From Liolophura sinensis (lineage: Eukaryota > Mollusca > Polyplacophora > Chitonida > Chitonidae): a stretch of 64,000 nucleotides of DNA. The position numbers and the translations under genes are program-made. The DNA lies in contig NC_088302.1 of assembly GCF_032854445.1 (NCBI RefSeq), positions 57,638,237-57,702,236 on the forward strand. The letters are read 5' to 3'. Below are positions 1,353-55,960 of this stretch, in pieces. The notes under the pieces were generated by a model. The model did not search any database and had not been told where the DNA came from. It saw only the letters and a program-made list of their open reading frames with translations. The first letter of the stretch is position 1, and each line of letters opens with the position of its first letter.

Positions 1353-4300
1353 TCAATGACTTTTAACGGTCGCTTCTATTTTACTGAAGTCAATCACAAT
1401 TTGCTTCTGCTTTGGACGATATTGTCTAAAAGGCAAGGAAAATCAAAATATTAGCTTTATGTTTTTGAGCATGATCATTTAACACACTTGTAAAACATTT
1501 CGGCCTGCAATGTCACTATAGTACACTGACACCACCCTGACATCATTTTAAAGCTGTTTTCTGCTTCTTAAAGTGCATTTCCTGAAGAAGAAAAAAACAC
1601 GTTTTGATGTCATAACGTATTTTATACGACAACGATATTTTTTTTTTCGATTTACAGGCAAGCCAACTTTCAAACATGCATAAATGGAATAAATATAAAA
1701 CTGAAAATCCACCAATAATCTCCATGCATTCTGACCATTAATATGTAAATATGTCTTTAACAGGAAAAAGTGCCATTTAAATCCACAGTATTTATTTTTA
1801 TCTTTACACCCATCTGCGACATTAAAAAAAAGATTTATTCTTCCTGTAAAACAATTAAAACTGGTGTAAGCCTTACCCTCAACCTTCAACTGCAACCTCA
1901 ACCTTCACCATTCAACCTTCAACTTCAACCTTCACCACCCATCACTCCACAAATTCAAATAAATTCAGCTAAACTATTTTCAGGAAAGCAAATCTTTTCG
2001 CTCATCGAGTTCTAGTGGGCAGGAAAAACTAAAACCTATTACCTGGACTTATACTGTTCAGACTTAATTTGGAATCGGCTTATGGCAATTTGTGATTTAT
2101 TTTTACCTGTATGTCACACCTGCAAAATCCATCATTTTCTTTGAGGCTTTAAACTCCACATGCTCCTTATACTTGTCAGAGAAATAGATGACCTCTTTGA
2201 TACCAGACTGAATTATAACCTTGGCACATTCGTTACAGGGGAAGAGCGCGACATAGATAGAACAGCCTTTCACATCAGCCGAGTTCTTGTTGAGGACAGC
2301 ATTCAACTCGGCATGACACACTGGAACACAAAGATAGCACATGTAATTCCTAATTATGTTCTATGAATTATGAAACTTTCACATTTAGTTGTTGGCAACT
2401 ATTTTAAAATAAATTCTTGTGCTTTATCATTACTTGTGAATTAAACATTATTACATTCTGAAGATTTCCTCTTGGATTCTATGATGCGAGGTGTGATAAT
2501 TATAACTAGGTTAATGGCTCAAGTAGACGCCCAGCTGTGGGCCTGACAAACCGCAGACAGATGGTCACACAGATGGTCACACAGATGGTCTGATGTCCTC
2601 TGAATCGATCAGGATCATTTTAAACATCATAAACAGAAGAAAAATATAATTTGGTGAGGAAACATCTGAAAATCTACTCAACTACGATTGAGTCACAATT
2701 GGCCTTTATACCTCACAGCAGTACATACCTTGTACATGGGACCTACAGGTGTACATACCATGTGGGGTATCTCTGTGTGTACAACACAGAGCACAGAACA
2801 TACCATGTGGGCCATCTCTGTGTGTACAACACAAATCAGAGGACATACCATGTGGGCCATCTCTGTGTGTACAACACAAACCACAGGACATACCATGTGG
2901 GCCATCTTCATGTGTACAAAACAAACCACAGGGCTTATCATGTGGGCCATCTTCATGCGTACAACACAGACAACAGGGCATACCATGTGGGCCATCTCTG
3001 TGTGTACAACAAAGAGCACAGAACATATCATGTGGGGCATCTCTTTACCCGTCTCGCCATCTACCTGTACAACACAGACCACAGGACACACCATGTCGGC
3101 CATCTTCGTGTGTACAACACAGACCACAGGGCATACCACGTGGGGCATCTCTGTGTGTACAACACAGACCACAGGACATCCATGTGGGGCGTCTCTGTGT
3201 GTACAACACAGACCACAGAACATACCATTTGTGGGGAATCTCTATGTGTACAACACAGACCACAGGGCATACCATGTGAGCCATCTCTCTGTGTGTACAA
3301 CACAGGACAACAGAAAATACCATGTGTGGCGTTTCTCTGTATACACCACAGACAACAGGAGAGGTCCATATGGCCCATCTCTGTGTGTACAACACAAACC
3401 ACACAACATACCATGTGGAGAATCTCTCTGCATACAACACAGAACACAGGGCATACCATGTGGGGCAACTCTCTGTGTAAAATACAAACCACAGCACATT
3501 CCATGTGGGCCATATCTCTGTGCACAACATAGACCACAGGACAAACCATATGGGCCATCTCCCTGTGTACAACACAGACCACAGGAAATACCATGTGGGC
3601 CATCTCCCTGTGTACAACACAGACCACAGGGCATATCATGTGGACCATCTCTCTGTGTACAACACAGACCACAGGACATACCATGTATGCCATCTTCATG
3701 TGTATCACACAGACCACAGGGCATACCATGTGGGGCATCTCTCTGTGTACAGACATACTATGTGGGGCGTCTCTGTGTGTACAACACAGACCACACGACA
3801 TACCATGTGGGCCATCTTCATGCGTACAACACAGACAACAGGGCATACCATGTGGGCCATCTCTGTGTGTACAACACAGACCACAGGACATACCATGTGG
3901 GCCATCTCTCTGTGTGTACAACACAGACCACAGGACATACCATTTGGGGAATCTCTCTACCCGTCTCGACATCTACCTGCACAACACAGACCACAGGACA
4001 TACCATGTCGGCCATCTTCGTGTGCACAACACAGACCACAGGGCATACCATTTGGGGCATCTCTGTGTGTACAACACAAACCACAGGACATACCATGTGG
4101 GGCGTCTCTAGGTGTAAAACACAGGCCACAGGACATACCATTTGTGGGGAATCTCTCTGTGTACAACACAGACCACAGGGCATACCATGTGGGCCATCTC
4201 TCTGTGTGTACAAAACAGACCACAGAACATACCATGTGTGGCGTGTCTCTGTATACACCACAGACAACAGGAGAGTCCATATGGGCCATCTCTCTGTGCA

Positions 4301-7300
4301 CAACACAAACCACAGGACATACCATGTGGGGCATCCTTATGTGTACACAAACCGCAAGACATATCATGTGGGCCATCTCTGTGTGTAAACACAAACCACA
4401 GGACATCTCATGTGGGCCATCTCTCTGTGTACAACACAAACCACAGGACATACCATGTGGGCCATCTCTCTGTGTACAACACAGACCACAGGACATACCA
4501 TGTGGGCCATCTCTCTGTGTACAACACAAACCACAGGACAGTCCACGTGGGCAATCCTTGTGTGTACAACACACACCACAGGACATCTCATGTGGACCAT
4601 CTCTCTGTGTACAACACAAACCACAGGACATACCATGTGGGCCATCTCTCTGTGTACAACACAAACCACATGACATCTCATGTGGGTCATCTCCGTGTGT
4701 ACAATACAAACCACAGGACATACCATGTGGGCCATCTCTGTGTAAAACACAGACCACAAGACATACCATGTGGGCCAACACTCTGTGTAAAACACAAACT
4801 ACAAGACATACCATGTGAGCCATCTCTCTCTGTACAACACAAACCACAGGACATACCATGTGGGGTGTCTCTGTGTGTACAACACAAACCACAGGACAAT
4901 AACATGTGGGCATCTTCATGCGTACACACAGAAAACAGGGCATACCATGTGGGGACATCTCTGTGTGGTACAACAAAGGGCACAGAACATACCATGTGGG
5001 GCGTCTCTCTACCCGTCTCGCCATCTACAACACTGGCCATAGGACATACCGTGTGGGCCACCTTCGTTTGTACAACACAGACCACAGGGCATACCCATGT
5101 GGGGCGTCTCTGTGTGTACAACACAGGCCACAGGACATACCATTTATGGGGAATCTCTGTGTGTACCACACAGACCACAGGGCATACCATGTGGGCCACC
5201 TCTCTGTGTGTACAACACAGACCACAGGACATACCATGTGGGCTATCTCTCTGTGTACAACACAAACCACAGGACATTACCATGTGGCCATCTCTCTGTG
5301 TACAACACAAACCACAAGACATACCATGTGGGCCATCATTTTCTGTACAATACAAAAAACAGGACATCTCATGTGGGCCATCTCTCTGTGTACAACACAG
5401 ACCACAGGGCATACCGTGTGTGGGGCGTCTCTGTGTGTACAACACAGACCACAGGACATAACGTGGGCCATCTTCAATGCGTTACAACACAAACAACAGG
5501 GCATACCCTGTGGGAACTCTCTATGTGTACAACAAAGAGCACAGAACATACCATGTGGGGAATCTCTCTACCCGTCTCGCCATCTACCTGTACAACACAG
5601 ACCACAGGACATACCATGTCGGCCATCTTCGTGTGCACAACACAGACCACAGGGCATACCATTTGGGGCATCTCTGTGTGTACAACACAGACCACAGGAC
5701 ATACCATGTTGGGCGTCTCTGTGTAAAACAGGCCACAGGACATACCATTTGTGGGGAATCTCTCTGTGTACAACACAGACCACAGGGCATACCATGTGGG
5801 CCATCTCTCTGTGTGTACAAAACAGACCACAGAACATACCATGTGTGGCGTGTCTCTGTATACACACAGACAACAGGAGAGTCCCATATGGGCCATCTCT
5901 CTGTGTACAACACAAACCACAGGACATACCATGTGGGCCATCTCTCTGTGTACAACACAAACCACAGGACAGTCCACGTGGGCCATCCTTGTGTGTACAA
6001 CACAAACACAGGACATACCATGTGGGCCATCTCTCTGTGTACAACACAAACCACGTGACATCTCATGTGGGTCATCTCCGTGTGTACAATACAAACCACA
6101 GGACATACCATGTGGGCCATCTCTCTGTGTAAAACACAGACCACAAGACATACCATGTGGGCCAACACTCTGTGTAAACACAAACTACAAGACATACCAT
6201 GTGAGCCATCTCTCTCTGTACAACACAGACCACAGGACATACCATGTGGGGTGTCTCTGTGTGTACAACACAAACCACAGGACATAACATGTGGGCCATC
6301 TTCATGCGTACAACACAGAAAACAGGGCATACCATGTGGGACATCTCTGTGTGTACAACAAAGGGCACAGAACATACCATGTGGGGCATCTCTCTACCCG
6401 TCTCGCCATCTACCTGTACAACACAGGCCATAGGACATACCGTGTGGGCCACCTTCGTCTGTACAACACAGACCACAGGGCATACCATGTGGGGCGTCTC
6501 TGTGTGTACAACACAGGCCACAGGACATACCATTTATGGGGAATCTCTCTGTGTACCACACAGACCACAGGGCATACCATGTGGGCCACCTCTCTGTGTG
6601 TACAACACAGACCACAGGACATACCATGTGGGCTATCTCTCTGTGTACAACACAAACCACAGGACATACCATGTGGGCCATCTCTCTGTGTACAACACAA
6701 ACCACAAGACATACCATGTGGGCCATCATTTTCTGTACAATACAAAACACAGGACATCTCATGTGGGCCATCTCTCTGTGTACAACACAGACCACAGGGC
6801 ATACCGTGTGGGGCGTCTCTGTGTGTACAACACAGACCACAGGACATAACATGTGGGCCATCTTCATGCGTACAACACAAACAACAGGGCATACCCTGTG
6901 GGACATCTCTATGTGTACAACAAAGAGCACAGAACATACCATGTGGGGAATCTCTCTACCCGTCTCGCCATCTACCTGTACAACACAGACCACAGGACAT
7001 ACCATGTCGGCCATCTTCGTGTGCACAACACAGACCACAGGGCATACCATTTGGGGCATCTCTGTGTGTACAACACAGACCACAGGACATACCATGTTGG
7101 GCGTCTCTGTGTAAAACAGGCCACAGGACATACCATTTGTGGGGAATCTCTCTGTGTACAACACAGACCACAGGGCATACCATGTGGGCCATCTCTCTGT
7201 GTGTACAAAACAGACCACAGAACATACCATGTGTGGTGTGTCTCTGTATACACCACAGACAACAGGAGAGTCCATATGGGCCATCTCTCTGTGTACAACA

Positions 7301-10300
7301 CAAACCACAGGACATACCATGTGGGGCATCTCTCTGTGTACACAAACCACAAGGCATATCATGTGGGCCATCTCTGTGTGTACAACACAAACCACAGGAC
7401 ATCTCATGTGGGCCATCTCTGTGTGAACAACACAAACCTCAGGACATACCATGTGGGCCATCTCTCTGTGTACAACAGAGGCTACAGGACATACCATGTG
7501 GGCCATCTCTCTGTGTACAACACAAACCACAGGACAGTCCACGTGGGCCATCTCTCTGTGTACAACACAAACCACAGGACATCTCATGTGGGCCATCTCT
7601 CTGTGTACAACACAAACCACAGGACATACCATGTGGGCCATCTCTCTCTGTAAAACACAGACCACAGGATATATCATGTGGGTCATCTCTCTGTGTAAAA
7701 CACAGACCACAAGACATACCATGTGGGCCAACACTCTGTGTAAAACACAAACTACAAGCATACCATGTGAGCCATCTCTCTCTGTACAACACAGACCACA
7801 GGACATACCATGTGGGCCATGTTCATGCGTACAACACAGAAAACAGGGCATACCATGTGGGACATCTCTGTGTGTACAACAAAGAGCACAGAACATACCA
7901 TGTGGGGCGTCTCTGTACCCGTCTCGCCATCTACCTGTACAATACAGGCCATAGGACATACCGTGTGGGCCATCTTCGTTTGTACAACACAGACCACAGG
8001 GCATACCACGTGGGACATCTCTGTGTGTACAACACAGACGACAGGACATACCATGTGGGGCGTCTCTGTTTGTACAACACAGACCACAGGACATACCATG
8101 TGTCGGGAATCTCTCTGTGTACCACACAGACAACAGGGCATACCATGTGGGCCATCTATCTGTGTACAACACAAACCACAGGACATCTCATGTGGACCAC
8201 CTCTCTGTTAACAACACAAACCACAGGACATACCATGTGCGCCATCTCTCTGTGTACAACACAAACCACAGGACATACCATGTGGGCCATCTCTGTGTGT
8301 ACAACACAAACCTCAGGACAGCTCATGTGGGCCATCTTTCTGTGTACAACACAAACCATACGACATACCATGTGGGCCATCTCTCTGTGTAAAACACAGA
8401 CCACAAGATATATCATGTGTATACACCACAGGACATACCATGTGGGCCATCTCTGTGTGTACAACACAAACCACAGGACATCTCATGTGGGCCATCTCTC
8501 TGTGTACAACACAAACCACAGGACATACCATGTGGCCATCTCTCTGTGTACAACACAGACCACAGGACATAGTCATCTCCATGTGTACAACACAGATCGC
8601 AGAACATAACATGTGAGCCATCTCTCTGTGTACAACACAAACCACAGGACATACCATGTGGGCCATCTCTCTGTGTACAACAAAGACCACAGGACAGTCC
8701 ATGTGAACCATCTTTGTGTCTACAACACAAACCACAGGACATACCATGTGGGGCATCTCCGTGTGTACAACACAGACCACAGGACATAACATGTGGGCCA
8801 TCTCTCTGTGTACAACACAGACCACAGGACATACCATGTGGGCCATCCCCCTGTGTACAACACAAACCACAGGGCATCTCACGTGGGCCATCTCTCTGTG
8901 TACAACACAGACCACAGGACATACCATGAGGGCCATCTCTCTGTGTGTACAACACAAACCACAGGACATACCATGTGGGCCATCTCTCTGTGTGTACAAC
9001 ACAGACCACAGGGCATCTCATGTGGGCCATCTCTCTGTGTACAATACAGGCCACAAGACATAACATGTGGGCCATCTCTCTGTGTACAACACAAACCACA
9101 GGACATACCATGTGGACCATCTCTCTGTGTGTACAACACAGACCACAGGACATACCATGTGTGGCGTCTCTCTGTATACACCACAGACAACAGGAGAGTC
9201 CATATGGCCCATCTCTGTGTGTACAACACAAACCACAGGACATACCATGTGGGGAATCTCTCTGTGTACAACACAGACCACAGGACATACCATGTGGGCC
9301 ATCTCTCTGTGTAAACAACACAAACCACAGGACATACCATGTGGGCCATCTCTCTGTGTGTACAACACAGACCACAGGGCATCTCATGTGGGCCATCTAT
9401 CTGTGTACAATACAGACCACAAGACATAACATGTGGGCCATCTCTCTGTGTACAACACAAACCACAGGACATCTCATGTGGGCCATCTCTCTGTGTAAAA
9501 CACAAACCACAGGACATACCATGTGGGCCATCTCTCTGTGTACAATACAAACCACAGGGCATCTCATGTGGGCCATCTCTCTGTGTACAACACAAACCAC
9601 AGGGCATCTTATGTGGGCCATCTCTCTGTGTACAACACAAACCACAGGACATACCATGTGGGCCATCTCTCTGTGTGTACAACAAAAACCACAGGGCATA
9701 TCATGTGGGCCATCTCTCTGTGTACAACACAAACCACAGGACATACCATGTGGGCCATCTCTCTGTGTACAACACAGACCACAGGGCATACCATGTGGGC
9801 CATCTCTCTGTGTACAACACAAACCCCAGGACATACCACGTGGGCCATCTCTCTGTGTACAACACAAACCACAGGACAAACCACGTGGGCCATCTCTCTG
9901 TGTATAACACAAACCACAGGACATATCATGTGGGCCATCTCTCTGTGTACAACAGGCCACAGGACATACCATGTGGGCCATCTATCTGTGTACAACACAA
10001 ACCACAGGACATCTCATGTGGGCCATCTCTGTGTGCACAACACAAACCACAGGACATCTCATGTGGGCCTTCTCTGTGTACAACACAAACCACAGGATAT
10101 ACTATGTGGGCCATTCTCTCTGTGTACAACACAGACCACAGGACATACCATGTGGGCCATCTCTCTGTGTACAATACAAACCACAGGGCATCTCATGTGG
10201 GCCATCTCTCTGTGTACAACACAGACCACAGGACATACCATGTGGGCCATCTCTCTGTGTGTACAACACAAACCACAGGACATACCATGTGGGCCATCTC

Positions 10301-13300
10301 TCTGTGTTTTTACATTTTTGTGAAGGGAGTTAAAGGCATTGAAATGTTTGAATTCTAAGGCGGGCTTCATGGACCATACTATAAGCGTTTAGGAACTCTA
10401 AGCGGAAGTTTTTCCAACTCCTATCACGACACTGAATATGTGAATAACTCTTTATACCCAGGATTTAAAGACCACTGAAATGATGTTCTCAAAACTTCGT
10501 TCCTTCTGGTTAATATCAGGAGAAAAAGGTCATGTGACATCAGAGTTCACAGATACTGTCAGTATGGCTTGTAATGCCCAACAAAGAATTCAAATAGTTG
10601 AATGTCTTTCAGCACTCAAAAAAACTAAAAAACCCATGAAAGTATTTTTATGCTCACTTTTCAGTTGTCTATCTGATGAACCTTACTTTATACTTTTTAG
10701 CTATCTTTTACTTTAAAGTTACATACGTGGCCAAAAAAAAAAAGCCACAGATAGAGGAAATATGGACCAGATCTGACTGAATACTCCCTTCAATTACTGA
10801 TGAGGGGCCTCCAAGGCTCGGTACAGAGCCATCTTGACTATGGCGTAGAGCTCCAATGAAATAAAATAACTAAATCAATTACTGATGCTCTCAGGGCACT
10901 ACATATTGAAAAGCCCAACAAGGCATTGTCAAATCCATGCATATGGCTTATAGCATATCAGACTTGCTAATTCAACTAATTCAACCAAGAAATACAGAGG
11001 TTTATCCTAAAATAAAGCCAAACGAAAAAGAAAAGGTCCACATTTTCACTCCAGGAAACACAGGCTCTGACAGCAACTGTTGCGAAGCGATGGCCTTTTC
11101 CCCTATAACAGCCATGAGGCAGAAGGGCAGGCTTCCAACTCATTTCAAATCTTGCCTACACGCCGCTGTGGGCGCGCAAGACCCAAATGCATGCTACATC
11201 TTGAAGTCGAGATAATATAAACCCGGATAAATTTAAATGGGCACTTCTACAAGCTACCAATCACTGTTTCCACACTATAAAATTCAAGCTTCATTATAGA
11301 TTAAGCCACACCATGACTATGGCTTCTGGAAAAGCACAGTGAGTAGGCCTAATGCATCAATTTAGCAATGCTTTACAGGGCAATACATAATGCCTTCAGG
11401 TCTTCCTGGCATGGCGTCACCTGCTCTGGGCTCTGCGGCTGACAGGATTGGCAGACAGTCCATCTTAAATGTTGTTTTTAAATGGAAGTGGTTGACATAA
11501 TATTTTCTTATAAGCAGGTTACAAATGCACAAAGCATAAATAACATGAATAATTTTTATCTAAGTTTGAGCTTTTCCAATCTACTGTACATGGGAAGGTC
11601 TGTCATCAATCTGCGGATGGGCCTGGTTTTCCTCCCGAGCTCTGCCTGCTTTTCTCCCACCATAATGCTGGCCACCACTGTACAACTGAAATATTCTCGA
11701 GTATGGCTTAAAACATCATATAAATACATACACTCAGAATTGGTAACAAGCCTACCACAGAGCTTGCCTGTTTGAGGCAACAAAGTCAGGAATTCAGCCA
11801 TTTATGTTATTTAATATGCACACACCGAATCAACGATGGAATATCCCCCTCATGCTATTGTGCTCTACATGTGAGCAAAGTCTGAGCTCAATACATGCAG
11901 TATTTTTTAAGATATCACCCGACACACTTTGTTTAACATTGATCCTTATACACCATACACATACACCATACTCAATACACCATACACCAGACACAATACA
12001 TACACCACACACCATACATATACACAATACACCACACACAATACCCCATACATCACACATAATACACCACACACCACACAAAATACACCATACACCACAC
12101 AGGATGCACATAGCCTGAAGTAATTCAGTAATTTACCGTATTTAATATACACACCCCCAATCAACGATGGAATACACCCCTCATGCTACTGTGATCTACA
12201 TGTGTGCAAACCTGGAGCGCAATACCTGCTGTACTTAAGATAACACTCCCAACATTTTGTTTAACATTGCTGTATTATTGGACACCAATGCTCAGGGTTT
12301 GATATAAGCTACACCCTTACTTTACAAAGGCGAGCTGAAAGGGGTGGACACTCAAGATGTCCTTAGGTCAGCTGTTATGGTTACCATAAAGACGCTTCTG
12401 ATCCAGTATGTCGCCCTCTCTCCCCCAGGGCATGACGTCATCGCTGCACCCAATAGGCATCCCATTGTACCCTATACCCACAATCTTGTTCTCACTGTTT
12501 ACAATGCATGCTCCAACCTGTAAGAAATAGAATCAGACAAGACAACCTAACTACTTCCACAGGGTTACAACAGGTGAAATAGTACAGGGCAAAATGTCTG
12601 AGATAAGAGTTCTCTCCTGAAATAAATAGACATGCAGACAAGGTATTACACAAGGGAGTTAAATAATGTTCATAATGGGAGGGTGGTGGGGGAGTGGTAA
12701 CAAAATTCACCTAGAGTTCTGTAGTGACAGAACTATCAAGTTTGACTTAAATTCAGTGCTGGATGCAGGGTTCCAAAGAGTCCTTCAGTTGACTTGTTTT
12801 TAAAGTAATCAATGACAAAGTAATCAATGACAAATTATTCAGAGCAAATAAGGTATGAAAATTGTATCGTATTACCAATACATGTAAATTCTGAAAGCAC
12901 AAAAACACTCAAATATGTCCCAATTGAGAACTAGAAACTGGAAATGCTAGGACATAAGCCAAGTGGTCAGACACCAACAGTGAAGCTGTGGTCTTAATAC
13001 ATGTATCCTAGCTGTGGTCTTAATACATGTATCCTAGCTGTGGTCTTAATACATGTATCCTAGTTGTGGTCTTAATACATGTATCCTAGCTGTGGTCTTA
13101 ATACATGTATCCTAGCTGTGGTCTTAATACATGTATCCTAGCTGTGGTCTTAATACATGTATCCTAGCTGTGGTCTTAATACATGTATCCTAGCTGTGGT
13201 CTTAATACATGTATCCTAGCTGTGGTCTTAATACATGTATCCTAGCTGTGGTCTTAATACATGTATCCTAGCTGTGGTCTTAATACATGTATCCTAGTTG

Positions 13301-41589: not shown

Positions 41590-44500
41590 TCACGTGAAGA
41601 TCAGAGCAGCGCCAATCAGAAGAAGAGCCAGAGAGGGGATAGTCCGCAACGCTTGCTGGCCGTTATCCGTCGTGTAAGCTGGCATGAATTCCGGTGGCGA
41701 CAGTGTTTGGGAGACATCGGCCGTGGCAGGCAATTCTGTCGTGAATGTTTTAACATCAGTCAGGCTCTCCGTCATGGTAACTCTTTCGGTTAGAGTCGTT
41801 GTTTTAGGTTTTTTATAGTTTTTGATTTTCTTTGTGGTTTTTCTTACTTTCTTTGTTGTTTTCTCAACTGGCAACTCATCAAATTCAGAAGAGATACCTG
41901 CCACTTGCTTACACCAGCTCGGTAAAACTGCCACATTGTAGTTGTTGTAGGCCGTTTTCACTTGATCAGTACATGATGTGTACGCTTGCTGTTCGCATCG
42001 CAACAGTTCAGCAGTTGCTCTGAAGCAAAAAGACATTAAATGACTGATTGATTGACTGATTGGTGTGTTGAAGAATGTTTCACTTATATGACGGCGTGGG
42101 AGAAACCGGATTGACCTTCGCAAGTTACCTGACAAAACCGGCTGAAGGAAAACAAGCCATGGGAAAGATTAAATCAGACAGGCTAAACCAAAGTTAGCTG
42201 AATACGGTGTCAACTAAGGCAAAATGTGCAAATAACAATTTTAGTAAACAGTACAATTTCAAAAGTTCACACAAGTTTCATAAGCTATACTAGAAATATT
42301 GAAACAAGCAGACCTATTGTATGAGGTATTATCCAGAAATGTACAGGGCAAAGACTGGAGAGGGAAGACTTGCTCATTATATCCCTTTTTTAAAGATCTC
42401 TGCCGGTGCACTTACTTGCACATGATAATACGCTTGTCTTGGAATGATAGCTCTGGTGTCTCTAACTCGTACGTTGCTTCGCTGTAGTCGTTGTTACAAG
42501 CTTCCGACACAGTCACATTGGGGTCTTGTACACATTCCAAGTCCTCCCCAAGATCTGCAATGTAAGCATCAAATTTTACGTCGTGTGTTGACTTATTAGC
42601 TCAGCCATATCGATCGTCATGTTTGAATGTTCGGTGCCAGCAACAGGGGTTTACTTTAACATTACAGATCAGTAAGTAGAACGCGCATTTCGAGAGCTAT
42701 CTTCACCTATAATGTTATACCTACAATTTCATTTACTTCTCAATGAAGTGGAATAGGTACAGTAATCACAGTTTCAGGATAACACAAATATTACCATTCA
42801 CAATAGGACAAAACGCTCTGTAGACCAACACTTACCATTCACAATAGGACAAAACGCTCTGTAGACCAACACTTACCATTCACAATAGGACAAAACGCTC
42901 TGTAGACCAACACTTACCATTCATAATAAGACAAAATGCTCTGTAAACCAACACTTACCATTCACAATAGGACAAAACGCTCTGTAGACCAACACTTACC
43001 ATTCACAATAGGACAAAACGCTCTGTAGACCAACACTTACCATTCACAATAAGACAAAATGCTCTGTAGACCAACACTTACCTTTCACAATAGGACAAAA
43101 CGCTCTGTAGACCAACACTTACCATTCACAAAACGCTCTGTAGACCAACACTTACCATTCATAATAGGACAAAACGCTCTGTAGACCAACACTTACCATT
43201 CACAATAAGACAAAATGCTCTGTAGACCAACACTTACCATTCACAATAGGACAAAATGCTCTGTAGACCAACACTTACTATTCACAATAGGACAAAATGC
43301 TCTGTTGACCAACACTTACCATTCACAATAGGACAAAATGCTCTGTAGACCAACACTTACCATTCACAATAGGACAAAACGCTCTGTAGACCAACACTTA
43401 CCATTCACAATAGGACAAAACGCTCTGTAGACCAACACTTACCATTCATAATAGGACAAAACGCTCTGTAGAGCAACACTTAACATTCACAATAGGACAA
43501 AACGCTCTGTAGACCAACACTTACCATTCACAATAGGACAAAACGCTCTGTAGACCAACACTTACCATTCACAATAGGACAAAATGCACAGTAGGCGAAC
43601 ACTTAGCATTCACAATAGGACAAAATGCTCTGTAGACCAACACTTACCATTTACAAAAGGACAAAATGCTCTGTAGACCAACACTTACCATTCACAATAG
43701 GACAAAATGCTCTGTAGACCAACACTTACCATTCACAATAGGACAAAACGCTCTGTAGACCAACACTTACCATTCACAATAGGACAAAATGCTCTGTAGA
43801 CCAACACTTACCATTCATAATAGGACAAAACGCTCTGTAGACCAACACTTACCATTCACAATAGGACAAAATGCTCTGTAGACCAACACTTACCATTCAC
43901 AATAGGACAAAATGCTCTGTAGACCAACACTTACCATTCACAATAAGACAAAATGCTCTGAAGACCAACACTTACCATTCACAATAAGACAAAATGCTCT
44001 GTAGACCAACACTTACCATTCACAATAGGACAAAACGCTCTGTAGACCAACACTTACCATTCACAATAGGACAAAATGCTCTGTAGACCAACACTTACCA
44101 TTCATAATAGGACAAAATTCTCTGTAGACCAACACTTAGCATTCATAATAGGACAAAATGCTCTGTAGACCAACACTTACCATTCACAATAGGACAAAAC
44201 GCTCTGTAGACAAACACTTACCATTCATAATAGGACAAAACGCTCTGTAGACAAACACTTACCATTCATAATAGGTCAAAACGATCTGTAGACCAACACT
44301 TACCATTCACAATAAGACAAAATGCTCTGTAGACCAACACTTACCATTTACAATAAGACAAAATGCTCTGTAGACCAACACTTACCATTCACAATAGGAC
44401 AAAACGCTCTGTAGACCAACACTTACCATTCATAATAGGACAAAACGTTCTGTAGACCAACACTTACCATTCACAATAGGACAAAATGCTCTGTAGACCA

Positions 44501-47500
44501 ACACTTACCATTTACAATAGGACAAAATGCTCTGTAGACCAACACTTACCATTCACAATAAGACAAAATGCTCTGTAGACCAACACTTACCATTCACAAT
44601 AAGACAAAATGCTCTGTAGACCAACACTTACCATTCACAATAGGACAAAATGCTCTGTAGACCAACACTTACCATTCACAATAGGACAAAATGCTCTGTA
44701 GACCAACACTTACCATTCATAATAGGACAAAATTCTCTGTAGACCAACACTTACCATTCACAATAGGACAAAATGCTCTGTAGACCAACACTTACCATTC
44801 ACAATAGGACAAAACGCTCTGTAGACCAACACTTACCATTTACAATAAGACAAAATGCTCTGTAGACGAACACTTACCATTCACAATAGGACAAAATGCT
44901 CCGTAGGCGTTTAGCTGAGATTCAGAGTCGAACAAGTCATATGACCCCAACTCGTACAAAAGTCCTGTACGATTTCTCCTCTCGACCACTTGTTGGAGAC
45001 ACGGAATAAACGTCTCATAATATCTGTTGGAGGAAAGAGAAATGGAAAACAAATAAGAAAATACATAACATTTTGGCGCCAAAACAGACATTCGCGTTTC
45101 GGATCAGTTGCAAGACCAAAAAACGACATTCAACACCAACAAGCAAAGACCTAAGAAGTACCCAGCCTACAGTAAGAAATTATGATCTATTCATGTAAAA
45201 GGAAGAAGGTAACATTTTTCAGTGATGATGGAAAACTGCAAAAGTTCTAGGCGAATGAATTAAATCAGCATTGGAATAGTGCACCATTTTTCATATTTAA
45301 CAAGTGGTAGTGCAGTTAAACACTCTTTGTTGCAAGTTCTGAAGTCTGCAAGTTCTGAAGTCTGCAAGTTTTGAAGTCTGCAAGTTCTGAATTCTATAAG
45401 TTCTGTAGTTTCTAATGTAAACTAATAAACAATATTGTTAACAAGGAAACCTTTATAAATATTTGAAAGACAAACAAACGAAACAAGATAAATGTTTGGA
45501 AGACAAACAAAGCAAGATAAATGGCGGGAAGACAAACAAACAAAGCCTAGATAAATGTGGAGAAGATAAACAAAGGAAGACAAATATTGGTAAGACAAGC
45601 ACACAAAGCAAGATAAATGTTGGGAAGACAAACACACAAAGCAAGATAATGTTGGGAAGACAAGCACACAAAGCAAGATAAATATTGGTAAGACAAGCAC
45701 ACAAAGCAAGATAACTGTTGGGAAGACGAACAAACAAAGCAAGATATATGTTTGGAAGAAAAACAAAGCAATATAAATGTTGGGAAGACAAACAAACAAA
45801 GCCAAGATAAATGTGGAGAAGACAAACAAGGCAAGATAAATATTGGTAAGACAAACAAAGAAAGCCAAGATATATGTTGGGAACACAAACATACGAAGCA
45901 AGATTAACTCATCAGATTCATATCCAACAGACTGGTGTAAATATAGTCAGATACATTTAAACAAGCATTTTGTTGAACGTACGGCTCTGCAATACAAGAC
46001 CCCTAGCGGCATGTGCGGTCAGAATAACATTAAAGTCAAAGCCTACAACAAAACGAAACGGGGATAACTTGGTTCACATTAGACGAAACTCCTCAAGTTG
46101 TAATCCAATGCGACAAAACCGTTTCGAACAGCTGAAAACTGCACAAATCTTTTTTGGAAAAAATCTAGAAGCCCAAATCAGTAGAAAACAGCCATAATTT
46201 TGTGAGCGAAGCGGCCCGAGACTGCGGTGTAAGTTCTCATGATGAAACCACGCGCCAAGTCTGAATTCTACATTAAGATTAACCTCTTAGAAAAAAATTC
46301 AGGAATCTTGGCCAGGTCTAATTCAACAGACGCTCAGGTAGAGGTAGTGGACTTATCAGCGAGAAATAATAGAATCTCTAGATGCAAAGATACCACTTCA
46401 CAAGAAAGGCCAGTGATCCTAAATAATGCGGAGAAATCCTGAATATCTTCACTTTCAGCTCACCTGCACAGTTTGTTCAAGGTTGTCCCCAAGGACGCAG
46501 GGTCGGTTTCTCTGTCTTCCGGGAAACATTCTACAGGAATGCCCATCCAAAAAGGACCAAAGATGATGTCGTCGTACTTGGAGTTCACACCGAGCATAAT
46601 CTTGCAGGTCGTGGGTAGTGCCGCGATGTAGAAGTTGGCCATGGCTCGCCCCATACCGGCATCGCACGATGAGAACGCCAAGCTCTCACAGCTGGCGTGT
46701 TTCTGGAACGCTCTGCGTTATAATAGATATCGAAAATATCACGCTATTAGTATAAATCTAAGCGTCAAGTCCAACATTCCTCTACCACCCGTGCAGGCGA
46801 AGAAGAGTGACTAAAGTCGATAATTGCCAGACGAAATGTATATTCACTTTCCCGCACTAGGCGTATGGGTATACGTCTTTTTTACAATACATACCTAATT
46901 CCTCAATTAATTTATGGTTCACAATTTTTCGGTATTTGTGTTGCCCGTTGTTTTCGGTCTTCATGCTACTACTGGTCATTTTGTGGCTATCACATATACA
47001 AATGTCAATGACGCCTTATACATACCATTGATTTGGCCCTTTTCTGTGTTGCATTTAAACTGTTGTGTGCAAAACTTTACGTACCTACATAAATATGTTG
47101 TTGATTCGTACACATCGTAAAAATTATGGTCCAGAAGAGAGCTGACGGCGTTCAGGTCCTCATTACACTTCATTAGTTCTGGTTCCTTCTCCTGAACACA
47201 GTGACGATTTGGGGTTATCGCTGTAAACAGAAGGGAAGCAGACAAACAATAAATCTTCTCCACAACACAGTGACGACTAGGGGTGATCGCTGTAAACGGT
47301 GGTGTAACAGACAAACAATAAATCTTCTCCACAACGCAGGAGAGTGCGGAGAGGTGGTGTACACGGGACAGGAGAGTGCGGAGAGACTTTCTGTGCAGGT
47401 TTAGTTATCAAAGAGAAAGTTGTTTGTTATCAACTGTTGCCAGTTCCGTCACTTCTTTTTGGAACGCTAGGAGTGTGTGGATGTCAATCTTTTGCTATTC

Positions 47501-53039: not shown

Positions 53040-55960
53040 GTCAAGTGTAGGAGCAGATCACGTGCAGTGTAGGAGCAGCGCATGTACAGCGTACGTATAG
53101 TGTCCATATCAGGTGCAGTGTAGGGGCAGCGCATGTACAACGTACATATAGTGTCCATATCAGGTGCAGTGTACGTTCAGCGTATGTACATCGTATATAT
53201 AGTGTCCATATCAGGTACAGTGTAGGTGCAGCGCATGTACAGCGTACACATAGTGTCCATATCAGGTGCAGTGTACGTTCACCGCATGTACAGCGTGAAT
53301 ATAGTGTACATATCAGGTGCAGTGTAGGGGCAGCGCATGTACAGCGTACATATTGTGTCCATATCAGGTGCAGTGTAGGGGCAGCGCATGTACAGCGTAC
53401 GTATAGTGTCCATATCAGGTGCAGTGTAGGGGCAGCGCATGTACAACGTACATATAGTGTCCATATCAGGTGCAGTGTACGTTCAGCGTATGTACATCGT
53501 ATATATAGTGTCCATATCAGGTGCAGTGTAGGGGCAGCGCATGTACAGCGTACATATTGTGTCCATATCAGGTGCAGTGTAGGGGCAGCGCATGTACAGC
53601 GTACATATTGTGTCCATATCAGGTGCAGTGTAGGGGCAGCGCATGTACAGCGTACATATTGTGTCCATATCAGGTGCAGTGTAGGGGCAGCGCATGTACA
53701 GCGTACATATTGTGTCCATATCAGGTGCAGTGTAGGGGCAGCGCATGTACAGCGTACGTATAGTGTCCATATCAGGTGCAGTGTAGGGGCAGCGCATGTA
53801 CAGCGTACATATTGTGTCCATATCAGGTGCAGTGTACGTTCACCGCATGTACAGCGTGAATATAGTGTACATATCAAGTGCAGTGTAGGGGCAGCGCATG
53901 CACAGCGTACATATTGTGTCCATATCAGGTGCAGTGTAGGGGCAGCGCATGTACAGCGTACGTATAGTGTCCATATCAGGTGCAGTGTAGGGGCAGCGCA
54001 TGTACAACGTACATATAGTGTCCATATCAGGTGCAGTGTACGTTCAGCGTATGTACATCGTATATATAGTGTCCATATCAGGTGCAGTGTAGGGGCAGCG
54101 CATGTACAGCGTACATATTGTGTCCATATCAGGTGCAGTGTAGGGGCAGCGCATGTACAGCGTACATATTGTGTCCATATCAGGTGCAGTGTAGGGGCAG
54201 CGCATGTACAGCGTACGTATAGTGTCCATATCAGGTGCAGTGTAGGGGCAGCGCATGTACAGCGTACATATTGTGTCCATATCAGGTGCAGTGTACGTTC
54301 ACCGCATGTACAGCGTGAATATAGTGTACATATCAAGTGCAGTGTAGGGGCAGCGCATGCACAGCGTACATATTGTGTCCATATCAGGTGCAGTGTAGGG
54401 GCAGCGCATGTACAGCGTACGTATAGTGTCCATATCAGGTGCAGTGTAGGGGCAGCGCATGTACAACGTACATATAGTGTCCATATCAGGTGCAGTGTAC
54501 GTTCAGCGTATGTACATCGTATATATAGTGTCCATATCAGGTGCAGTGTAGGGGCAGCGCATGTACAGCGTACATATTGTGTCCATATCAGGTGCAGTGT
54601 ACGTTCACCGCATGTATAGCGTGAATATAGTGTACATATCAGGTGCAGTGTAGGGGCAGCGCATGCACAGCGTACATATTGTGTCCATATCAGGTGCAGT
54701 GTAGGGGCAGCGCATGTACAGCGTACGTATAGTGTCCATATCAGGTGCAGTGTAGGGGCAGCGCATGTACAACGTACATATAGTGTCCATATCAGGTGCA
54801 GTGTACGTTCAGCGTATGTACATCGTATATATAGTGTCCATATCAGGTGCAGTGTAGGGGCAGCGCATGTACAACGTACACATAGTGTCCATATCAGGTG
54901 CAGTGTAGGAGCAGCGCATGTACAGCGTGAATATAGCGTACATATCAGGTGCAGTGTAGGGGCAGCGCATGTACAGCGTACATATTGTGTCCATATCAGG
55001 TGCAGTGTAGGGGCAGCGCATGTACAGCGTACATGTTGTGTCCATATCAGGTGCAGTGTAGGGGCAGCGCATGTACAGAGTATAGACAGTGTCCAGATCA
55101 GGTGAAATGTAGTTGCAGCGCATGTACAGCGTGAATATAGTGTACATATCAAGTGCAGTGTAGGGGCAGCGCATGTACAGCGTACATATAGTGTCCATAT
55201 CAGGTGCAGTGTACGTTCACCGCATGTAAAGCGTGAATATAGTGTACATATCAAGTGCAGTGTAGGGGCAGCGCATGTACAACGTACACATAGTGTCCAT
55301 ATCAGGTGCAGTGTAGGGGCAGCGCATGTACAGCGTACATATTGTGTCCATATCAGGTGCAGTGTAGGGGTAGCGCATGTACAGCGTACATATTGTGTCC
55401 ATATCAGGTGCAGTGTAGGGGCAGCGCATGTACAGCGCACACATAGTGTCCATATCAGGTGCAGTGTAGGTGCAGCGCATGTACAGCGTATATGCAGTGT
55501 CCAGATCAGGTGCGGTGTAGGAGCAGCTAATGTTCAGTGTACATATTGTGTCCATACCAGGTGCAGTACAGAATATAGGGTCAAGTTCAAGTGCAGTGTA
55601 GGGGCAGCGCATGTACAGCGTACATATTGTGTCCATATCAGGTGCAGTGTAGGGGCAGCGCATGTACAGCGTGAATATAGTGTCCAGATCAGGTGCAGTG
55701 ATGGGGCAGCGCTTGTACAGCGTACATATACTGTCTATATCAGGTGCAGTGTAGGTGCAGCGCTTGTACAGCGTACCTATACTGTCCAAATCAGGTGCAG
55801 TGTAGGGGCAGCGCATGTACAGCGTATCTAAAGTGTCCAGATCAAGTGCAGTATAGGGGCGAGCACATGTACAGGGTAATGTCCAAATGAAGTGCAGTGT
55901 TGGGGCAACGTAGGTGTAGCGTATGTACTCTTCAGGTGCAGTATACATGTAAGTGCACTT
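53040..55960. repeat. 51-bp minisatellite with higher-order organisation
   Basis: About 57 copies (gtccatatcaggtgcagtgt aggggcagcgcatgtacagc gtacatattgt). Variant units with tacgttcaccgcatgtac recur at about 53275, 53835, 54295, 54600 and 55213; those at 53835 and 54295 are nine units (459 bp) apart. Variants with tacgttcagcgtatgtacat form a second marker series. 51 is divisible by 3, giving an 800-codon open frame on the minus strand that I regard as an artefact. Units diverge toward 55960. Confidence 0.97.

Follow-up and report, generated by a model that had tools for sequence, protein, structure and literature searches.

The exon-border array and its host gene

The window analysed here, the whole stretch of 64,000 nucleotides, carries on its minus strand four modelled exons of a coding gene, with further exons of the same gene lying upstream. 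An upstream coding exon (46464..46712), whose end tgcag is followed by the donor gtgagc and which leaves in phase 2, was placed by its borders and by the open joined frame. It precedes a coding exon of 146 nt (44878..45023; acceptor caacag, donor gtaagt, phase 2 in and phase 1 out), the next coding exon (42416..42554, phase 1 in and phase 2 out) and the last coding exon (41590..42019), assigned from the joined frame, which holds the stop codon and a hydrophobic tail that by inspection is of the GPI type. The GT/AG borders and the phases are consistent over the four exons, which when joined give an uninterrupted frame of 320 residues. These data agree with the proposal of the sequence-only reading that the 146-nt exon is probably spliced from its donor at 44878 to the acceptor at 42554. 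The focal protein gave no match to a Pfam family and a genome search for a second copy of exon 45023-44878 found only the focal locus, so that this junction rests on the phases and on the similarity between modules, the protein of exon 46712-46464 resembling that of the last exon (tblastn match at 46714-46565, E 2.6e-8).

Across the 5' border of the intron that follows the 146-nt exon lies a tandem array with a period of 41 bp, which Tandem Repeats Finder (TRF) places at 42791-44906 on the minus strand, with 51.8 copies, 94% matches and a score of 3700. On this strand the array begins within exon 45023-44878, which it overlaps by 29 nt, and extends for about 2.1 kb into the intron; segmentation resolved it into an exonic copy followed by 51 intronic units, of which 50 measure 41 bp and the remaining one 33 bp. 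Each unit comprises about 32 nt of exon end and 9 nt of intron (gtaagtgtt). The unit therefore spans the exon–intron border, and the true exon end, as given by the exon frame and borders and by the TRF overlap, falls inside the array. The sequence-only reading had described about fifty 41-bp copies of an exon end with its 5' splice site, originating by duplication across the exon–intron border: the copy number, the period and the origin are all supported by the sequence, while the exon share of 20-21 bases given there proved too short, since the units are homologous to about the last 32 nt of the exon.

We counted 52 donor positions in the array, the terminal degenerate one included. GTAAGT is intact at 48 of these, among them the first, exon-proximal donor (44872..44877, minus strand); the G of GT is lost at three, and the terminal donor, at the distal end of the array (42789..42794, minus strand), reads GTAATA. 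Pairing with U1 is predicted at -11 kcal/mol or better for 47 of the 52. An acceptor-like tctacag is also present in most units, as seen in the position table. The exact 41-mer of one common unit occurs nine times in the whole assembly (609,464,459 bases in 632 contigs, of which contig C1 accounts for 96,433,062), every time in the focal array.

This arrangement resembles the so-called mirages of amphioxus, tandem repeats that span exon–intron borders, both 5' and 3', in Adh3, the globins BflGb6 and BflGb9, PGBD5 and TnC, with units of 10 to about 160 bp, many of which contain splice signals (accessible text of PMC3087553 and PMC3902484). The two cases differ in that amphioxus is a cephalochordate and its globin mirages have few copies in the accessible text (6 and 3 units in two BflGb6 haplotypes), whereas the chiton is a mollusc whose array numbers 52 donor positions, and further genes of its genome show the same layout.

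An error of assembly or annotation, by which the length of the array would be wrong or the exon not real, is the least probable explanation and can hardly be expected to hold. The copy number is checkable only with reads. However, the available description of the Liolophura japonica assembly reports HiFi reads of 8,347 bp on average at 14X (PMC11068029), four times the length of the 2.1-kb array, which makes an assembly artefact unlikely; moreover, frames and phases agree over four exons, and other genes, with strong homology, show the same arrangement, as described below.

Donor choice and variation among the units

In combination with the acceptor at 42554, the first donor alone gives an open frame through the four modelled exons. 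Any later donor would lead to a stop 12 residues past the junction, inside unit 1 (GKCSSTEHFVLL, then the stop), as the sequence-only reading had anticipated in placing an in-frame stop about a dozen codons after the true junction. Such a stop, together with the 48 intact GTAAGT motifs and the 47 donors predicted to pair well with U1, is compatible with a regulatory switch, in which distal donors would be used in some tissues and give rise either to a shortened protein that lacks both the last module and the hydrophobic tail or to a degraded mRNA. A precedent for the use of repeated donors is the human IFI6 (6-16) minisatellite, which, like the chiton array, supplies several splice donors in one transcript (Turri et al. 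1995, as cited in the accessible text of PMC4526556 and PMC2572611). According to the same text, two downstream units are used there as donors (PMC4526556) and yield further isoforms, whereas a later donor of the chiton array meets the stop after 12 codons.

Positions +2 to +9 of the donor are invariant among the 50 full units, which also speaks for the switch, and at positions +1 to +6 only 3 of 300 cells are variant, compared to 64 of 1,750 elsewhere in the unit. Of these 67 variant cells, 41 sit at three common variable positions (22, 30 and 35). Counted by rare-variant kinds, the donor has 2 of 19 where 2.8 would be expected; this lack of depletion argues against the switch. The low raw variation of the donor could mean constraint, but the rare-variant kinds show no depletion, and the comparison is ambiguous. 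Also in view of the genes described in the next section, we consider a regulatory switch unlikely.

As to the growth of the array, a direction in which unit 1 would be the closest to the exon was rejected: unit 1 has 4 mismatches in 32, the range over the 50 full units being 2 to 7. No repeated blocks of unit types, three or more units long, were found in the focal array, and identical neighbouring units number 8, against 6.3 in shuffles (P 0.27).

The same layout at other genes

The whole assembly was scanned for three GGTAAGT words spaced by 20-50 bp, which gave 793 + 884 matches. The matches listed make up 21 arrays, all within the initial 26.6 Mb of C1, and 20 pieces were fetched at their 5' edges, one of which contains two neighbouring arrays. 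In 6 of the 20 sampled arrays the first donor belongs to a coding exon with homology support, the array starting at this donor or beside it. Four of these exons were recognised by Pfam: DUF4457 (L012, E 3.3e-15), Branch (L016, E 1.5e-6), the alpha-glucosidase family GH31 (L027, E 2.9e-13) and the myosin head of a muscle myosin (L028, E 2.2e-10; PDB 2.8e-11). The remaining two were assigned through PDB matches, to the RNA polymerase III subunit RPC1 (L022, 3e-9) and to N-acetylneuraminate lyase (L023, 9e-4, the Pfam DHDPS match reaching only 0.12). Two more of the 20 are probably exon-anchored: a chitinase-like locus (L014), with a PDB match that is not significant (E 0.21), and an open frame with no family and hardly any exon in the unit (L021). 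In the other 12 sampled arrays no recognisable exon was present at the first unit.

The exon share of the units varies across loci from almost none to about 39 nt. The latter value belongs to Branch, where the exon end copies the unit by eye and 49 nt of other sequence lie between its donor and the point where the TRF array begins. One further candidate (L026) was excluded from the count, as its upstream open frame of 807 nt runs on and the array begins about 250 nt later; an identification of L021 as a TMC-like channel was rejected, having no Pfam support.

For all eight loci, 2.0-2.6 kb of downstream sequence were fetched in search of the next exon. This was present past the array at four of them (DUF4457, GH31, myosin and Branch) and was not seen within that distance for RPC1, the lyase, L014 and L021. 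Joining the exons at the first donor gave a gapless alignment over the junction with maltase-glucoamylase for GH31, and likewise with a myosin, which we take to be that of squid, for the myosin gene. The DUF4457 exons, joined in the same way, place 83 residues on 83 profile positions. For Branch the E-value improves to 2.5e-8, but the join is not free of insertions, because 110 residues fall on 99 profile positions. The presence of arrays similar to the focal one in such genes counts against the regulatory switch considered above: in myosin heavy chain, in RPC1 and in GH31 a conserved protein would probably be broken by insertions.

The GH31 units, of 39 bp, keep the frame open over 92 residues beyond the junction (L027, from 2138), and a shift of donor would therefore add protein repeats of 13 residues. 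Beyond the GH31 array, at about 374-730 of the piece L031, two adjacent copies of one GH31 exon (GILNFQLFGIPL...) were observed, which might be mutually exclusive exons or the product of a recent duplication.

The predicted U1 pairing was compared over the first eight donors of each array, with the Branch values left out. In the focal array all eight are equal (-11.0 kcal/mol), and in DUF4457 no copy is predicted to be stronger than the first donor. In GH31 the first donor, GTATGT, is predicted at -8.3 kcal/mol, the next five, GTAAGT, at -12.1, and the last two at -5.5 and -8.2; in RPC1 the first donor, GTAAAT, is predicted at -8.3 kcal/mol and the other seven at -12.9 to -13.7. The first donor of GH31 and RPC1 is thus predicted to be weaker than most of those that follow, and therefore position would have to beat strength. 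From the coding need, these arrays predict that being close to the exon counts for more than the strength of the donor.

RNA structure was assessed at the focal locus. A stretch of 208 nt that covers the exon end and the first units has a less stable fold than shuffled sequences (z +2.36). A single fold of the exon end with three units has most of the first donor paired (mean probability of being unpaired 0.18), so that accessibility does not explain the use of this donor.

Genome-wide occurrence and interpretation of the arrays

Triples of GGTAAGT number 1,677 from 79,283 single sites (2.1%) and those of the reversed word 2,410 from 103,436 (2.3%), counts that are dominated by long arrays. 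For GGTGAGT there are 3,101 triples versus 2,088 for its reversed word, as triple counts only, without normalisation to single sites. Some excess of donor arrays, with a mild preference at donors, is possible. The counts also bear on the proposal that the array acts as a U1 sink or kinetic buffer, its many donors loading U1 and thereby suppressing premature polyadenylation or raising expression. A single intron with about fifty U1 sites predicted to be strong would suit such a role, but GGTAAGT seeds arrays no more than its reversed word does, and we regard the proposal as very improbable.

Among the matches listed for the control word TGAATGG there are six arrays. A convincing exon was seen by eye at none of the five readable 5' edges and at none of the five readable 3' edges, one 5' edge lying outside the fetched piece and one 3' edge having been left out. 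Exon-anchored arrays are thus 6 to 8 of 20 for the donor word and 0 of 5 for the control, numbers too small for a test.

At 3' splice sites, the matches listed for TTTCAGG comprise 22 arrays over 94.5 Mb, 20 of which were fetched. A homology-supported exon lies at the array end in two of the 20 (prefoldin 3, whose units hold almost no exon, and GH18), one more lies at a weak tetraspanin exon (E 0.003, below its cut-off) and one is supported by an open frame only, without a family; these four are L053, L062, L064 and L066. Judged from the matches listed and with no formal test, the 3' arrays are rarer per length than donor arrays (22 in 94.5 Mb versus 21 in 26.6 Mb), and the single word TTTCAGG is commoner than GGTAAGT (127,801 versus 79,283). 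The scarcity of 3' arrays would fit donor arrays being easier to tolerate.

Taken together with the directly observed sequence, frames and recurrence of the layout at other exons, these results lead us to consider it very probable that the focal array is a minisatellite of the mirage type, most likely neutral, whose proximal donor at 44878 would be spliced to 42554. It probably arose by a duplication over the 5' border of the intron, including about 32 nt of exon and 9 nt of intron, and would have expanded to 52 donor positions by tandem-repeat turnover, through slippage or unequal exchange. The exon-proximal donor would be the one used, because together with the upstream acceptor it defines the real 146-nt exon, and the remaining copies would leave with the intron; minisatellite births at donors would be tolerated for this very reason. 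In the accessible text on amphioxus, the Adh3 and globin data likewise suggest that regular splicing is undisturbed by mirages (PMC3087553).

The sequence-only reading had left three options: a switch, a U1 sink, or an array tolerated because the first or the last donor always wins. Tolerance through the first donor fits best, since only this donor keeps the frame with 42554 and the same layout at conserved exons joins gaplessly; the switch and the sink gained no positive support, and use of the last donor would keep the array, stop included, in the mRNA. Distal donors may quite possibly be used to a minor extent.

A wider, more tentative proposal, to which we give slightly less than an even chance, is that exon-anchored splice-site minisatellites in this chiton number roughly in the hundreds, with conserved core genes among their hosts, and that the spliceosome takes the proximal donor though stronger copies follow within tens of bases. 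The figure of hundreds is extrapolated from one motif and one period range (21 arrays listed in 26.6 Mb, 6 to 8 of 20 exon-anchored).

In the accessible literature on minisatellites, splice sites and intron gain (including PMC3862624 and PMC11545220) we found no mollusc case of an exon-border donor array. As far as the literature searched goes, exon-border minisatellites are already known in amphioxus and the present ones add a new phylum. The accessible text on the earthworm metallothionein clone Lr6F14 reports duplications of exon 4, repetitive introns and duplicates absent from the final transcript (PMC12783039). The chiton gene shares the repetitive introns and the repeated exon sequence, which here too would be missing from the final transcript, but in the earthworm it is the fourth exon that is duplicated, and that text does not describe it as a donor array. 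Mollusc exon-border minisatellites, present at several conserved genes and reaching about fifty copies in the focal array, are natural experiments on 5' splice-site choice among near-identical neighbours, and also raw material for intron gain, as the amphioxus authors proposed.

Tandem arrays with a period of 10 or more make up 47% of the 64-kb window. This repeat load and the triple counts fit frequent births of minisatellites everywhere, some of them at splice sites. Further arrays of the window include one of 45 bp with 165.6 copies (2753-10307) and one of 51 bp with 55.7 copies (53057-55878); the minus strand of the latter has one frame open over 830 codons, which is allowed because the period is a multiple of 3. 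Elsewhere in the assembly, the mitochondrial gene order on contig C632 differs from that of amphioxus, one reason for rejecting amphioxus as the source, and contig C99 shows seven COX1 matches about 15.5 kb apart, corresponding to tandem mitochondrial genomes kept in the assembly.
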